37,617 nt of DNA from a virus, in the IMG/VR virus record IMGVR_UViG_3300042542_001723, positions 1-37,617 of that record; one strand, written 5' to 3'. Both the position numbers and the translations under genes were made by a program. Positions 1 to 37,617 of the stretch are shown in pieces. How positions within the stretch are numbered: the first letter of the stretch is position 1; every line of letters starts with the position of its first letter. Below the pieces are notes generated by a model that ran no database searches, was not told where the DNA came from, and saw only the letters and a list, made by a program, of their open reading frames with translations.

Positions 1-127
1 GGCCGATCACGTTGTTCTGGATAGCGCGCAGCGCCTGCTTCGCATAGTCCGAATCACGGCACAACTGCCGCGCCCGGTTGCGCAATGCCTTGAAGCTCGA
101 CTTGATCTCGCTATCGGCGCTGGTGCC
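1..127. repeat. Left copy of 127-bp terminal direct repeat (circularity overlap)
   Basis: Bases 1-127 are identical to 37491-37617. The repeat lies inside the portal gene, and joining the copies restores one uninterrupted portal reading frame. An exact length of 127 is what an assembler using 127-mers leaves on a circular contig. I read it as an assembly overlap and not as a biological terminal repeat. The true unit length is then 37,490 bp. Confidence 0.93.
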
Positions 128-31587: not shown

Positions 31588-32019
31588 CTACGGACTCTGC
31601 GCCAAATTAGCGACCTGCGTCCGATACTTCACCACGAAGTCGCAGGAGATCACACCAGATGGCTGGTCTGCCTCCTGCATATCAAAGCTGACTCCAGTCG
31701 GTTGCACGTCGTAGGCATGGCCTCCGACCGTTAGATCTGCCATCACCTTCGCGTGCAAACTCTCCACGATCGGATCGGCTACTTGATCTGGGATGTTGCC
31801 TCGCACAATCACCGCAATGCGCACGGTGAGCGTCCAGTCCAGCGTTGGTGTGCTGGTCAACTGCACGCACACATCGTTGATCGGCTCGACCACGATCGCC
31901 GGCAGCTCTCCCCTAGCCAGTGGCTCCACCCTGCTGCGGTAGATCCTTGTGCTCACGCCAGTGGTGCCCGTCAGCGCCGTGCGGATACCAGCCAAGATCG
32001 ACTCGCGCTTCGTTGTCAT
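31588..32019 (-). CDS. gpU-like tail terminator
   Basis: ATG 32019 overlaps the preceding stop (ATGA) and gives 143 residues (MTTKRESILAGIRTALTGTT; ELPAIVVEPINDVCVQL; TLDWTLTVRIAVIVRG; then a FVVKYRTQVANL end). This matches the tail completion/terminator group (gpU-like), which caps the tube and stops its growth. The longer frame to 32046 is less likely. Its place just upstream of the tube gene fits. Confidence 0.78.
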   Translation of the reverse strand: MTTKRESILAGIRTALTGTTGVSTRIYRSRVEPLARGELPAIVVEPINDVCVQLTSTPTLDWTLTVRIAVIVRGNIPDQVADPIVESLHAKVMADLTVGGHAYDVQPTGVSFDMQEADQPSGVISCDFVVKYRTQVANLAQSP

Positions 32020-32654
32020 GCCGATGCCACCTGCACCACTGTGCAAATGATGCCCGGAATCCCCGGATGCGCGAACGGACTGGTCGCCGCAGCCTCAGCG
32101 TGGATGTATGCAGCAGCGTTGCTGGTCGCCCAGATCAGCTCGATATAGTCAGCCGCCGCCAGCTTGAGGATGAAGTTCACCGTTCCGATCACATTGCCCT
32201 CAACGCCGCCATGGCTGGAGATGATGCTGAACTTGCTATCGCTGTCGGCCACATCACCGCTAGCGCCACTGTCGTTTTTGCGGAGCCATACGTTGATGTC
32301 ATGAATCTGCGCGTCGGAATTGCTGAATTGAATCGAGAACGTGAAGCTGTAGATGCCCGGATGGTCAACCGTGATCCGGCTATCCGAGATCACTTTGATG
32401 CCACGGTTGTCTAGATCGTTCTTGCGCAGCAGGATCGACGTTGGCGTATTAGCCGTAGCCGTCTGCGACGTTGTATCCCAGAACGATGCCCAGTTGGCTG
32501 GACTGCTGAAATACGGCAGCGTGTTCCACGCTGTCCTGCCGTCACCAATCTTCAGGTTGCCGGTCTGACTTTCAAGGCCAGGCTCTCCTGCCATCAGCAC
32601 AGGATTCTGCGCTGCCCACTGGCTCCGTGTGTTGATTTTGAAGGGACCGCTCAT
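32016..32654 (-). CDS. Virion surface protein: Mtd-type N-terminal module + C1q/TNF-like jelly roll
   Basis: The 212-residue protein begins with a motif usual at the base of fibres (SQWAAQNPVLMAGEPGLESQ, then TGNLKIGDGRTAWNTLPYFS), the small module named after tropism-determinant proteins. Residues 60-212 (ITVDHPGIYSFTFSIQFSNS, HDINVWLRKN, FILKLAAADYIELIW) have the beta pattern of C1q/TNF-like trimers. Proteins of this type are trimeric spikes. It lies between the head-tail connector and tail terminator genes, not with the other fibres, so it may decorate the neck or head. Overlaps by 4 bases on both sides suggest it is an established part of the operon. Confidence 0.65.
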   Translation of the reverse strand: MSGPFKINTRSQWAAQNPVLMAGEPGLESQTGNLKIGDGRTAWNTLPYFSSPANWASFWDTTSQTATANTPTSILLRKNDLDNRGIKVISDSRITVDHPGIYSFTFSIQFSNSDAQIHDINVWLRKNDSGASGDVADSDSKFSIISSHGGVEGNVIGTVNFILKLAAADYIELIWATSNAAAYIHAEAAATSPFAHPGIPGIICTVVQVASA

Positions 32655-32931: not shown

Positions 32932-33312
32932 TCAGCCGTACTTCGCAGAAGCCAGGCCGATCACAGCCACGGCACCGGCGCCGGTGCCACCAGCCACGGT
33001 CACGGAGACCTTCACAAAGCGCTTGATGTCGGTGACGTTCACAAACAGTTTCTGCAGCGAAGCAGTGTTTGCGGTGGTGGTGGTGAAGCCGCCACCAGTC
33101 ACGTCGGTGTAAGTACCGCCGGAGGTGTCGGAATGGGTCAGCTTGACGGCATAGGTGATGCTAGCACCGCCGGCTTCGGCGTCCAGCAGCACAGCAATGT
33201 CGCCTTCGTAGCCCTGCAGATCGATGGCAGAGCCGGTCCCGGTAGCGGTCACAACGTCGTTGCGGAGCAGGCCGAGAACCGTGGTCTTAGAGCCAAGGTT
33301 GTGGATGGTCAT
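32932..33312 (-). CDS. Small capsid-associated (decoration-like) protein
   Basis: The 126-residue protein is Thr/Gly/Ala-rich (TIHNLGSKTTVLGLLRNDVV, then QGYEGDIAVLLDAEAGGASI and KLFVNVTDIKRFVKVSVTVA), a beta-sandwich-like pattern found in many phages immediately after the capsid gene and usually annotated as structural. A capsid decoration or stabilisation role is inferred from place and composition. Confidence 0.6.
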   Translation of the reverse strand: MTIHNLGSKTTVLGLLRNDVVTATGTGSAIDLQGYEGDIAVLLDAEAGGASITYAVKLTHSDTSGGTYTDVTGGGFTTTTANTASLQKLFVNVTDIKRFVKVSVTVAGGTGAGAVAVIGLASAKYG

Positions 33313-33515
33313 GATTTAGCCCTCCGTCGAGGGGTAGATGGTTTAGGTGCTGGTTGAGCAATTTCCTCAACCAAATCGGCCACCTTGTCGGCGACCGCAA
33401 CAGCTTTGCCAATGCCGATCAACAGCTTGGCGTCCGAGGGGGAAGCCTCATGGACTTCCCCGAGACGGATCACCTGGCCTGCCAGCATTGTTTGCCGTAG
33501 GACCTTGATCAACAT
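33309..33515 (-). CDS. Small head-region protein (68 aa)
   Basis: MLIKVLRQTMLAGQVIRLGE continues VHEASPSDAKLLIGIGKAVA and ends in a Pro/Arg/Lys-rich tail. The L-x-G-x-V-x-x-x-G-E-V-x-x-x-x-x-x-x-A-x-x-L-I-x-x-G-K-A pattern is a common small protein between capsid and connector genes. Function not established; an adaptor to the capsid is likely. Confidence 0.65.
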   Translation of the reverse strand: MLIKVLRQTMLAGQVIRLGEVHEASPSDAKLLIGIGKAVAVADKVADLVEEIAQPAPKPSTPRRRAKS

Positions 33516-33517
33516 GA

Positions 33518-36145
33518 TCAGAGGGTGTCGTTGCCGCGGCTGAAGGACTCAGGATGGCGGATTGCGATGTCGCAGTCCTGCATCGCCACAACGCGGACGG
33601 TGCCGCTGGTGCTGTGGGTGTAGGGGTCCACCATCAGGTCGAGGCCAGAGAAGTAGCCGATGATCAGGTCGGCGAAGTTGCCGAACCACAGATCGCCAGA
33701 AGCCACTTGGTTGGACAGCACACCGCGGTAGCCGTTCACCTCGCCGTTTTCCATGATGAAGATGCCGGAGCCGGCGTCCTTCTTCGTGGTCTTGAGGTTG
33801 CCGCGCATAGCAGCGTTCATCAGGTACACAGGCGTACCGAGCAGAGCGTTGGCAGTAGCCACGTCGCTCTCCAGTGCCACCACCTCAGCGAAGGTAGGAG
33901 CAGCAGCAGCGAAGTCCTCGGTGCCGATGCCGGTGGTGTTCTTCAGACCCAGGGGCTCGCTGTTGGAGCCGGTGCCATACAGGCCGGCGGCGTCGATCTT
34001 GAGAGCGATCACGCTGGCCAGGTCGCTGCGCACCATGTTCTCCACGTCGATGGAGGACTGGATCATCAGGCGCCTGCTGAAGTCTGTGTAGGCCGCCACG
34101 GTACGGGGCACCAGACTCACCTGGTCGACGGTCTGCTGGGACTCGGTGGGGGAGCCGGACTCGGCCACCCAGTAAGCGGTAGCAGCGCCGGACTGGCGGG
34201 GGATAGCCACGTTGCCGGTCAGGCCGGTCAGCACGGTGGCGCCAGCTTGATCCAGGGCGGAAGCGTTACGGAGCAGGTCGATGAACGAACCGGCATCCAG
34301 ATCGGTAGCAACCAGGTTGCCGCCGGCGGAAGCGGTGCCGACGTTCAGGTCACGGCGCAGCACATCCTGGGGGATGGTGATGCCACGGGACTGACGGCCG
34401 AGTTTGGCAGCAGCAGCTTCGGAGGCCTCGATCTCGAACGCAGCAGCCTCACGGGCAGAGCGGTCGGTCGGGTTGGAAAGATAGTTGATGGCACGCAGGA
34501 AGGAGAAGCTGCGGCTCTCCTTCTCGCTGAGGCCAATGTCGGCGGCCTGCATGGTCACGGTCTCCTGGGGAATGTTGAGCTTGTCGAGGACAGCAGCACG
34601 AGCCTCATCGATTGAACGACCAGACTCGACCATTTGCCGGCCAAGATCCTCCATGCGGTGCTTGGAGCACAGGGAGGTGATATCTGAGATGCGGGCGCGC
34701 TCAGCCTCGGCGGCTTCAGCACGCACCACGGCCAGATCGGGGGTGGTGTTTTCCATTGAAGGAATGGGATCGGGTGTTGGTGCTGCCGAAGCAGCAGTGT
34801 CATCCTGCAGAGATCGACCAATCCCGACGCCGGGGTCAGCCGGCACCGAGACGACGCTGATCTCGTAAGGAGACCAAGCAGTAGCAACAAAGTCGCCACT
34901 GCCACGCTCCTCCATTTTGTCGATGGAGTAGCCGAAGGAGACATTCCGAAGAACGCCATCCTTCACATCACTCAGGATCTCCTGAGCGAATGGGTTGCGG
35001 CTAAACCGCACACGGGCATAGCCACGACGCTTTGACCCGTCGATGTATGCCCGCTCAACCACACCGATCACTTTGTCAGGGTTGTGGTTGAACAGCAGCG
35101 GCGCACCATCGTTCAAGCGGCTCAGATCAGCAGCCTTGCCTTCATGGCTCAGGATCTCATTGCCGAAGTATCGAGCGACCGGATACTCAGAGCTAAAGGG
35201 GAACTCGTAGGTCCGATCCTCCACCTCATCGAACGCAGTCATCTCGCTGCGCTGATACTTGCCGGTCAGGCTGCGCAGTGCCGCGATCTTGGTGAGCGTC
35301 GAGAACTTATGGCCGACCAGCGTCTCGGTCGCCTCCCAGCCTTCGTCGCCTTCGCGGTAGATGCGAATAAGAGCAGCAGGATCCTCAGCGCTGGCGTCGA
35401 TGCTGAACTCGGTGTCGGGTACGCCCAGCGTGCCCTCACGCATCACATGCTCGATCCGACCGCGCGCAGTGCCACCGCTCGAATCCCACTGCACAAAGTC
35501 GCCTTCGCTCAGTTCGCCCGGTGCAGCACGATCGGCTTCACCATCGCCCGTAGCTTCCTCGAACATGATCGGATCGAAGTCATGCTCGGCCAGCCAAGCA
35601 CGCGCCTCGGCTGGGGTGTACTGCGAGCTACGGAATCGGATGGCTTGAATTTCGCTCACGCCTTCCTTGATCCCGTAGATGAAGTCAATGCCTGAGCCGC
35701 CCGCATCGTTCTCTCGACGTAACGAATCATATTGCTCGGGATCGGTCAGCCGAGCAGCATGTTCATTCGGATAGGGGCGCTCTAAGTCCACGGCGCTTCT
35801 TTCTTGTAATGCCTTGATTCTATCGGCCTTGGATGTAGCCCATTCCTGGCCAGCATCTCCGCCCCATGCCGCCCATGCCACACGTCCAGGCGATGGATAG
35901 CCATCTTCGCCAGGACTGAATCCTTCGCCCTGCTTGTCCACCTCATGCCGGGCGAACCATGCCGCCATCGTGATCACCGTGTCGGCGCTCAACTCATCAC
36001 CGCCGAGGATCTGCCCAGCTCGCCTAGCCGCCACCTCGGTGCCGCCATCGCGCCCCTCAGCCTTCCAATCCCGATAGCGCTGCGCCTCCTCCTTCATGCC
36101 CTCCGTGGGCATCAGGTCGATCTCCTGCCCCTCGATCGTTGCCAT
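33518..36145 (-). CDS. Prohead protease - major capsid protein fusion with N-terminal accessory domains
   Basis: ATG 36145 overlaps the portal stop (TGATG); the protein is 875 residues. In order: an accessory domain at 25-105 (TEVAARRAGQILGGDEL, MAAWFARHEVDKQGEGFSPG, GRVAWAAWGGDAGQ); a second at about 150-200 (FIYGIKEGVSEIQAIRFRSS); a Tudor-like module at 215-285 (GDFVQWDSSGGTARGRIEHV); an HK97-type serine protease at 305-440 with His354 (LLFNHNPDKVIG), Ser403 (NVSFGYSI) and SVVSVPAD; a Glu/Ala-rich delta/scaffold region at 465-590; and an HK97-fold capsid protein to the end (SFIDLLRNASALDQAG, YWVAESGSPTESQQTVDQVS). The protease probably cleaves itself and the delta domain. An internal ATG at 34756 (codon 464) could make free capsid precursor of 412 residues. 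Confidence 0.88.
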   Translation of the reverse strand: MATIEGQEIDLMPTEGMKEEAQRYRDWKAEGRDGGTEVAARRAGQILGGDELSADTVITMAAWFARHEVDKQGEGFSPGEDGYPSPGRVAWAAWGGDAGQEWATSKADRIKALQERSAVDLERPYPNEHAARLTDPEQYDSLRRENDAGGSGIDFIYGIKEGVSEIQAIRFRSSQYTPAEARAWLAEHDFDPIMFEEATGDGEADRAAPGELSEGDFVQWDSSGGTARGRIEHVMREGTLGVPDTEFSIDASAEDPAALIRIYREGDEGWEATETLVGHKFSTLTKIAALRSLTGKYQRSEMTAFDEVEDRTYEFPFSSEYPVARYFGNEILSHEGKAADLSRLNDGAPLLFNHNPDKVIGVVERAYIDGSKRRGYARVRFSRNPFAQEILSDVKDGVLRNVSFGYSIDKMEERGSGDFVATAWSPYEISVVSVPADPGVGIGRSLQDDTAASAAPTPDPIPSMENTTPDLAVVRAEAAEAERARISDITSLCSKHRMEDLGRQMVESGRSIDEARAAVLDKLNIPQETVTMQAADIGLSEKESRSFSFLRAINYLSNPTDRSAREAAAFEIEASEAAAAKLGRQSRGITIPQDVLRRDLNVGTASAGGNLVATDLDAGSFIDLLRNASALDQAGATVLTGLTGNVAIPRQSGAATAYWVAESGSPTESQQTVDQVSLVPRTVAAYTDFSRRLMIQSSIDVENMVRSDLASVIALKIDAAGLYGTGSNSEPLGLKNTTGIGTEDFAAAAPTFAEVVALESDVATANALLGTPVYLMNAAMRGNLKTTKKDAGSGIFIMENGEVNGYRGVLSNQVASGDLWFGNFADLIIGYFSGLDLMVDPYTHSTSGTVRVVAMQDCDIAIRHPESFSRGNDTL

Positions 36146-37617
36146 CAATCTCCCTGCAACTGCTCGCTCAGATCTTCAGTCCCTTCTTCCTCGGGATAGT
36201 CCTCCTCCTCCTCGATCACCGGCTCGGTCTCCTCGAACGGTGCCTCGGTGCCCATCGGCCGTGAAGCCTGCACCGCACCACCCTCAGTCACCTCGCTCGG
36301 ATCGGTGTCCGTGATGATGTTGAACTCATCGAGCATCGCCAGCTCGCTCTGGCGGGTGAGCATCACATCATCCAGGTCGCCACCCTGTTCTGCGATGACC
36401 TGCGTCAGAGTCTTGAAGCCGCATCGCACCGCGGTCTTGTACGCATCCACTTCCTTCTGCGGATCAACCCACTCCCAGCTCCGGGGGATCCACTTGCTGG
36501 CGCGATAACGATCAGGGTTGGTCTCATATCCAGGCAGGTTCACAGCACCGCTCAGCACCGCCATCTCCAGCCATGCGTTGAAAACAGGCTGGTGGAAGTT
36601 CTCGATCATGTACCGCTGCAGCACGCGGTACGCATCACGCTCCTCGAGCAGGCTCAGCCGGCTGCTGCTGTAGTTGCTCTCGGAGAAGTTCTTGCTGATG
36701 CTCTCAAACGAAACGCCCAGGCCAGCAGCCACAGCACGCAGCATCGACCGGGTGAATGGCTCGAGCTGACCGTCCGGTGCGTTCATGTCCGGCACCGTCA
36801 CGCTCTGACCCGGATCGAGGTACTTGAACACTCCCGGCTGGAACTCGCTAACGCGCTCGCCTTCATACATCTCATCCGCCGTCAGTTCACCCTCGGGACT
36901 AGTGATAAATCCCATCAGCGCACTGCTAGCCCGTGCCCGCACCAGCTCGGCCTCCTCATAACCCTGCAGCATGTGCAGCCGCATCAGCGCCGATGCGAAC
37001 CACGTCACGCCCCTGGTCTGCCCAGGTCGTTCCGGAATAAACAGATGGATCACCTCATCAGCAGGTACCCGGATCCGGCGGCCAGTCGTGCGCACGTTGC
37101 CGGCGTAGGTATCGCCCGGATGGTTCGCATAGAAGTGATACGCCTGCGGCCGCAGATACTGATCCACCTCGATGCCCATCCGCACCGTGTTGCCATCCTT
37201 GGCCTGCGGCACGTCATCATCGATCAGGTAGTCAGCCTCCAGTAGTTGCAGCGCGAACGGCACACGGCTATCGCCGAACGGCCGGCGGATCATCCTGATG
37301 AAGATCTCGCCGCTCTCCGCCAAGCTGCGCACCGCCAGCCGCTCGATATCGTGGAAGCCGAGCAGGCCGCTCACGTCGCAGCGGTATTTGTTCATCCATT
37401 TCTCGAACGCCTCATGGATTTGGGCGTTCATCGCCTCATCCAACTTGCCCCCGCGCAGCATCCGCACCTGGCTCTGATGCCGGATGCCGTGGCCGATCAC
37501 GTTGTTCTGGATAGCGCGCAGCGCCTGCTTCGCATAGTCCGAATCACGGCACAACTGCCGCGCCCGGTTGCGCAATGCCTTGAAGCTCGACTTGATCTCG
37601 CTATCGGCGCTGGTGCC
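36145..37617 (-). CDS. Portal protein, C-terminal part (lambda gpB family)
   Basis: This carries most of the 528-residue portal. It contains CDVSGLLGFHDIERLAVRSL, GEIFIRMIRR, VIHLFIPERPGQTRGVTWFA and FSESNYSSSRLSLLEERDAY, all lambda-type portal signatures. The C-terminus has about 40 residues very rich in Glu (EEEEDYPEEEGTEDLSEQLQ), a tail seen in several portals, perhaps repelling DNA or binding the scaffold. The last 127 bases duplicate the left end of the window; the true start is the ATG at 241. The stop overlaps the protease-capsid start by 1 base. Confidence 0.93.
   Translation of the reverse strand, partial: GTSADSEIKSSFKALRNRARQLCRDSDYAKQALRAIQNNVIGHGIRHQSQVRMLRGGKLDEAMNAQIHEAFEKWMNKYRCDVSGLLGFHDIERLAVRSLAESGEIFIRMIRRPFGDSRVPFALQLLEADYLIDDDVPQAKDGNTVRMGIEVDQYLRPQAYHFYANHPGDTYAGNVRTTGRRIRVPADEVIHLFIPERPGQTRGVTWFASALMRLHMLQGYEEAELVRARASSALMGFITSPEGELTADEMYEGERVSEFQPGVFKYLDPGQSVTVPDMNAPDGQLEPFTRSMLRAVAAGLGVSFESISKNFSESNYSSSRLSLLEERDAYRVLQRYMIENFHQPVFNAWLEMAVLSGAVNLPGYETNPDRYRASKWIPRSWEWVDPQKEVDAYKTAVRCGFKTLTQVIAEQGGDLDDVMLTRQSELAMLDEFNIITDTDPSEVTEGGAVQASRPMGTEAPFEETEPVIEEEEDYPEEEGTEDLSEQLQGD
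37491..37617. repeat. Right copy of 127-bp terminal direct repeat
   Basis: Identical to bases 1-127; it should be removed to obtain the circular map. See the left copy for interpretation. Confidence 0.93.

Follow-up and report, generated by a model that had tools for sequence, protein, structure and literature searches.

A conserved internal start codon in fused protease-capsid genes of phages suggests a nested scaffold-capsid product

We analysed a stretch of viral DNA of 37,617 nucleotides (the window; IMG/VR record IMGVR_UViG_3300042542_001723, positions 1 to 37,617), in which one open reading frame encodes a prohead protease, a scaffold and an HK97-fold capsid domain. Comparison of this gene with its relatives strongly suggests that a hidden second start at the protease/scaffold boundary yields a capsid precursor without the protease, and a nested scaffold-capsid product of about 412 aa is likely. 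Protease-capsid fusions are already known, and the conserved internal start is the part of interest. Annotations of the fused genes read simply 'major capsid protein' and give no account of how the phage keeps a protease off most of its subunits. If our reading is true, the conserved hidden start provides that account, several hundred phage sequences hold a second, unannotated gene product, and the long form, with its optional N-terminal modules, is a route for extra domains into the procapsid.

The fused gene is located on the minus strand, from ATG 36145 to the stop codon at 33518-33520 (Table 1). Its start overlaps the stop codon of the portal gene as TGATG and is preceded by the Shine-Dalgarno (SD) sequence AGGGAG (−8.2 kcal/mol). 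Residues are numbered here according to P0001, a translation of 876 aa in which an upstream TTG is counted; the residue numbers of an earlier note on this DNA are lower by one. That note had placed all domains in a single frame, and the searches agree: Pfam recognises Peptidase_S78 (PF04586, E 6.9×10−10, 39.7 bits versus a cut-off of 21), Phage_capsid (PF05065, E 1.8×10−44) and Hva1_TUDOR (E 3×10−5, or 9.9×10−7 with the module alone), and a structural model shows the scaffold helices. The proposed active-site residues His354 and Ser403, which are His355 and Ser404 of P0001, proved invariant in 58 divergent relatives, as did Glu429, the putative third catalytic residue. The motif H-E-V-D-K-Q-G-E-G of module A occupies P0001 68-76.

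Table 1. Coordinates of the fused head gene, its parts and the adjacent portal gene in the window
Feature	Position	Strand	Remarks
Whole fused gene	33518..36145	(-)	modules A-B-Tudor, S78 protease, scaffold (delta-like), HK97 capsid; 875 aa
Module A	35813..36121	(-)	P0001 10-112, HEVDKQGEG ... GRVAWAAWGGDAG; helical, optional; related to PHROG 2859
Module B	35549..35791	(-)	P0001 120-200, PYPNEHAARL ... AIRF; alpha/beta, optional
Tudor-like module (Hva1_TUDOR)	35363..35503	(-)	P0001 216-262; SH3-like barrel, optional
Prohead protease Peptidase_S78	34829..35176	(-)	P0001 325-440; His355, Ser404, Glu429 invariant
Internal start codon ATG (Met465)	34754..34756	(-)	in disordered protease-scaffold linker; predicted product ~412 aa
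Codons −3 to +4 at internal ATG	34742..34765	(-)	minimum of third-position variability in the aligned protease-scaffold-capsid region, window's clade
Helical scaffold (delta-like) region	34358..34735	(-)	P0001 472-597
Likely maturation cleavage A608/G609 (TASA/GGNLV)	34322..34327	(-)	inferred from first residue of R4C chain 8gta
HK97-fold major capsid domain	33536..34324	(-)	P0001 609-871
Portal gene (lambda family)	36145..37617	(-)	directly upstream of fused gene; start at other end of window, 2-241

An AlphaFold2 model of P0001 306-876 (mean pLDDT 79, protease well predicted) predicts a core in which disordered linkers separate the protease from the scaffold helices and these from the HK97 fold. 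The internal Met is residue 160 of the model and falls into a low-confidence linker (model residues 142-165), and the helices (model residues 167-292) follow it directly. A second low-confidence stretch (model residues 296-314) contains the presumed cleavage site at model residue 304, with the HK97 fold beyond. Foldseek returned the R4C capsid as the top PDB match of the model (8gta, E 3.6×10−23), and HK97 proheads were also matched. The R4C capsid has 415 copies, and the paper that describes it makes no mention of a protease or of cleavage (PMC10276861). Of the 629 aa encoded by the R4C gene, a member of the fused family, the 8gta chain comprises only the last 268, which is experimental support for the C-terminal part alone forming the mature shell in this family. 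By analogy, the capsid precursor is likely to be cut near A608/G609, since the first residue of the chain aligns with G609; this agrees with the mature N-terminus near TASAGGNLV that the earlier note predicted. We rejected 8gta as proof of the mature N-terminus, because its residue numbers begin in the twenties and unmodelled residues may precede.

The internal ATG was kept in all 54 non-redundant loci of the window's clade. Over the eight codons from −3 to +4, third-position entropy fell to 0.062 bits, the lowest value among 537 overlapping windows (mean 0.733), although variability at the first and second codon positions was above the usual level there; the codon before the ATG, for example, was mostly TCA, GCA, CTA or GTA. 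Those S-LBS1-like relatives that have no linker Met have Val there, which is encoded by GTG in 12/12 cases (11 and L270). In S-LBS1-like genes, 47% of Val codons are GTG, and the chance of 11/11 would be ~3×10−4 under an assumption of independence that does not apply to these sequences. Two 'ATC' cases among the S-LBS1-like loci were pattern misplacements, with an ATG three codons on. Conservation, third-position constraint and the exchange of ATG for GTG bear out at the sequence level the suspicion, raised in the earlier note, that ATG 34756 serves as a start, although a nucleotide constraint at this place could serve something other than translation.

No SD sequence was found before ATG 34756 (+0.3 kcal/mol), nor at the internal ATG in any of 21 distinct contexts of the window's clade (0/21). 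Several other genes of the window likewise start without an SD sequence. RNA openness was rejected as the sole start cue in this clade, as the internal ATG was only moderately open (~21% of gene positions were at least as open). Translation is known to begin without an SD sequence in cyanobacteria and, more broadly, at start regions that lack structure (PMC6847405, PMC3121790); the cyanobacterial hosts of S-CBS1/3 and S-LBS1 give only a hint of the host of the window's virus. The start of the long form, in contrast to ATG 34756, is well supplied with an SD sequence, so that in this virus the short form is not necessarily the more abundant product.

Outside the window's clade, SD sequences were frequent at the linker Met. 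In a first set, all 29 representatives (29/29) had a Met between the PAD motif of the protease and the scaffold, and the SD threshold was fixed at −4 kcal/mol after this set; the E. coli phage ep3 scored −6.0 at its junction ATG. In a larger set outside the cyanophage-like groups, with one representative per cluster, the linker Met was present in 49 of 51 divergent relatives, a count that excludes 34 loci without a recognisable PAD motif. With the best-scoring linker Met chosen per sequence, an SD sequence of ≤ −4 kcal/mol was detected in 45/49 cases, compared with 231/928 (25%) of the other internal Mets; as the sequences are related, the Fisher p of ~9×10−22 for this enrichment overstates their independence. 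Taking the first linker Met, an SD sequence preceded it in 96% of the distinct contexts in the CRP-like group (background 21%) and in 82% of those in the Persinger-like group (background 26%). Copies in bacterial genome contigs mostly gave the same picture of linker Met and SD, and a few relatives (e.g. L136 and L158) had neither a linker Met nor an obvious substitute.

We consider it probable that the fused gene is a nested tripartite head gene whose long, protease-bearing protein and short, internally started protein assemble together, with cleavage near A608/G609. Translation from ATG 36145 would produce the long protein, consisting of the optional N-terminal modules, the S78 protease, the scaffold and the capsid domain, and translation from the in-frame ATG 34756 would produce the short one, scaffold and capsid, as a counterpart of HK97 gp5. 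Both would join in assembly via their common scaffold/capsid part, so that only some of the subunits would bring the protease and the N-terminal modules into the procapsid. Cleavage by the protease would then part scaffold and capsid, and the C-terminal domains would form the mature shell. The earlier note had worried that each capsid subunit would carry a protease, unless the internal ATG made most of the capsid protein. This worry probably does not apply, because translation appears to have a conserved start at the internal codon. We also favour, with less assurance, a wider proposal in which, throughout a widespread phage family, one nested gene comprises the whole head-maturation programme: a protease protein with exchangeable modules and a scaffold-capsid protein started at ATG or GTG, led by an SD sequence in most clades and, in the cyanophage-like clade of the window, SD-less and constrained, with the choice of start setting the dose of protease and modules per procapsid. 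Among open-access papers, we found none on nested starts in protease-capsid fusions.

It is unlikely, in our view, that the full-length polyprotein alone is made, carrying protease and modules on every subunit until self-cleavage in the procapsid strips off the N-terminal part. Such a scheme would fit the lack of an SD sequence at the internal ATG in the window's clade and the good SD sequence of a long form coupled to the portal stop, and it could be tolerable for relatives with short N-termini (~40-50 residues before the protease). Moreover, the protease-scaffold linker contains the motif AASAAP (window 34778-34795, P0001 452-457), invariant in 54 loci, which is similar to TASA/GG at the entry to the capsid domain and may be a second cleavage site. 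However, a full-length product alone leaves unexplained the SD enrichment in other clades as well as the third-position constraint and the ATG-to-GTG exchange, and a T=7 procapsid (T taken from R4C) would have to accommodate an N-terminal part of 608 residues some 415 times, which would seem sterically demanding.

Less likely still is an origin of the short form by cleavage at the conserved AASA/AP site of the linker, or from an internal promoter, instead of internal initiation. The invariance of AASAAP favours this origin, and a product of linker cleavage would be nearly identical, but cleavage needs no start codon, SD sequence, GTG substitution or third-position constraint, and a simple consensus scan of 33300-37617 found no sigma-70-like promoter.

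That the fused frame is an artefact, with two genes joined by a missed stop codon or frameshift, can practically be dismissed: split relatives exist, but the same fusion is present in 310 of the 325 relatives fetched (independent contigs and isolates, mostly from IMG/VR), including sequenced isolates, and is therefore neither chance nor an assembly error. Most of the other 15 loci were either truncated at contig ends or so divergent that the test could not be applied. A comparison of split and fused homologues, as the earlier note had proposed, thus revealed no consistent gene boundary near 34.75 kb. The fused protein was matched by 128 phage records, and a single protease-capsid gene is found in the isolates S-CBS1, S-CBS3, S-LBS1, the CRP roseophages, R4C, RcSaxon, Persinger, Mica, Alexa, PT1, ep3, VP882 and phiHAP-1. 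When IMG/VR was queried with R4C, zero relatives were returned. PHROG 617 aligns P0001 301-875 with positions 16-624 of its 626-position profile (E 1.4×10−172), from protease through capsid in one frame. The cut-off of NCBIfam NF045541 (scaf_prot_MCP2, 'prohead protease/major capsid protein fusion protein') was missed (183 versus 525 bits, mainly over residues 309-547). Judging by hundreds of relatives, PHROG 617 and NF045541, the fusion is of a described kind, and its presumed novelty did not hold, as both families already comprise such proteins. A "tripartite capsid gene" of Gifsy-2 also figures in the title of a paper of 2010 (Effantin et al., Virology 402:355, cited in PMC8814770 and PMC8538268).

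In the split relative L160, a protease-like ORF (20-1021), called so from its sequence and position and not by profile, is followed by a scaffold-capsid ORF (1045-2364). Phage phiPsal1 has an S78 protease gene with module A and, two small genes on, a capsid gene annotated as 'HK97 including scaffold/propeptide'. In these two split arrangements, the boundary between the separate genes thus coincides with the internal ATG.

With a short form started internally, the window's gene most likely works, by analogy, like HK97 gp4/gp5 combined with the internal start of lambda C/Nu3. In lambda, C/Nu3 is a protease-scaffold gene from which an in-frame internal start yields the scaffold alone; the lambda protease belongs to another family, and the capsid protein E is encoded by a separate gene. 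In the gene family of the window, too, an in-frame start codon is conserved where protease and scaffold meet, but the presumed nested product also carries the capsid protein. Gifsy-2 is said to have a "tripartite capsid gene" composed of a protease, which we take to be ClpP-like, a central scaffold-like domain and the major capsid protein. The window's gene likewise has protease, scaffold-like and capsid parts in one gene; in contrast to Gifsy-2, it has an S78 (HK97-type) protease and extra N-terminal modules, and a full Pfam scan detected S78 and no ClpP-like (S14) domain in it. The likeness to HK97 lies in the S78 protease, the helical scaffold domain N-terminal to the HK97 fold and the presumed cleavage at a disordered boundary, whereas gp4 and gp5 are separate genes in HK97 and are fused here, where the start of the presumed gp5-like product is internal. 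HK97 gp5 comprises a scaffold domain of 103 residues and a capsid domain of 281 (PMC10275583). The fusions of PHROG 617 and NF045541 (phiHAP-1, VP882, Persinger, S-CBS1/3, R4C and others) have the same protease-scaffold-capsid order in one frame, but many members are without modules A, B and Tudor, all three of which are present in the window's gene.

Profile searches showed that modules A, B and Tudor (C) occur in fused ORFs in the orders A-B-C, B-C, A-C, A-B, A, C and once A-C-B, or not at all, and the protease-scaffold-capsid core was unchanged across all combinations. Module A is also found on S78 and XkdF-type proteases of other phages and on a halovirus portal protein, and it is accompanied by a Tudor-like and an inorganic pyrophosphatase domain in a 'minor head protein' of Nodularia phage kac65v151 (L333, 2419-4020). 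Among the BFVD matches were numerous prohead proteases, XkdF proteins and portals. Foldseek searches, run on modules A and B together with the Tudor module, whose hits took up the VIA list, gave A and B no PDB match below E 0.001. On this evidence, the three modules behave as exchangeable head-associated domains. If the internal start is used, they are carried by the longer product only; we infer that they enter the procapsid on the protease-bearing form and would then be removed or released. A position of these accessory domains within the procapsid, as put forward in the earlier note, is plausible and in keeping with their repeated occurrence on proteases and portals. CRP-like loci without module A (L201, L186, L200 and others) often carry another N-terminal module, FPTKGDDKKISLRNSNYPQFDYDFA..., which makes the set of exchangeable modules larger than three.

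An exact repeat of 127 bases is located at both ends of the window (1-127 and 37491-37617) and is spanned by the portal gene (2-241 and 36145-37617), and the record probably represents a complete genome of ~37.49 kb that is circular or circularly permuted. In the head-tail connector region (window 32019-32654), we also observed a gene that encodes a Major tropism determinant N-terminal domain (Mtd_N), and in S-CBS1/3 genes annotated as mtd are located in the corresponding connector region.
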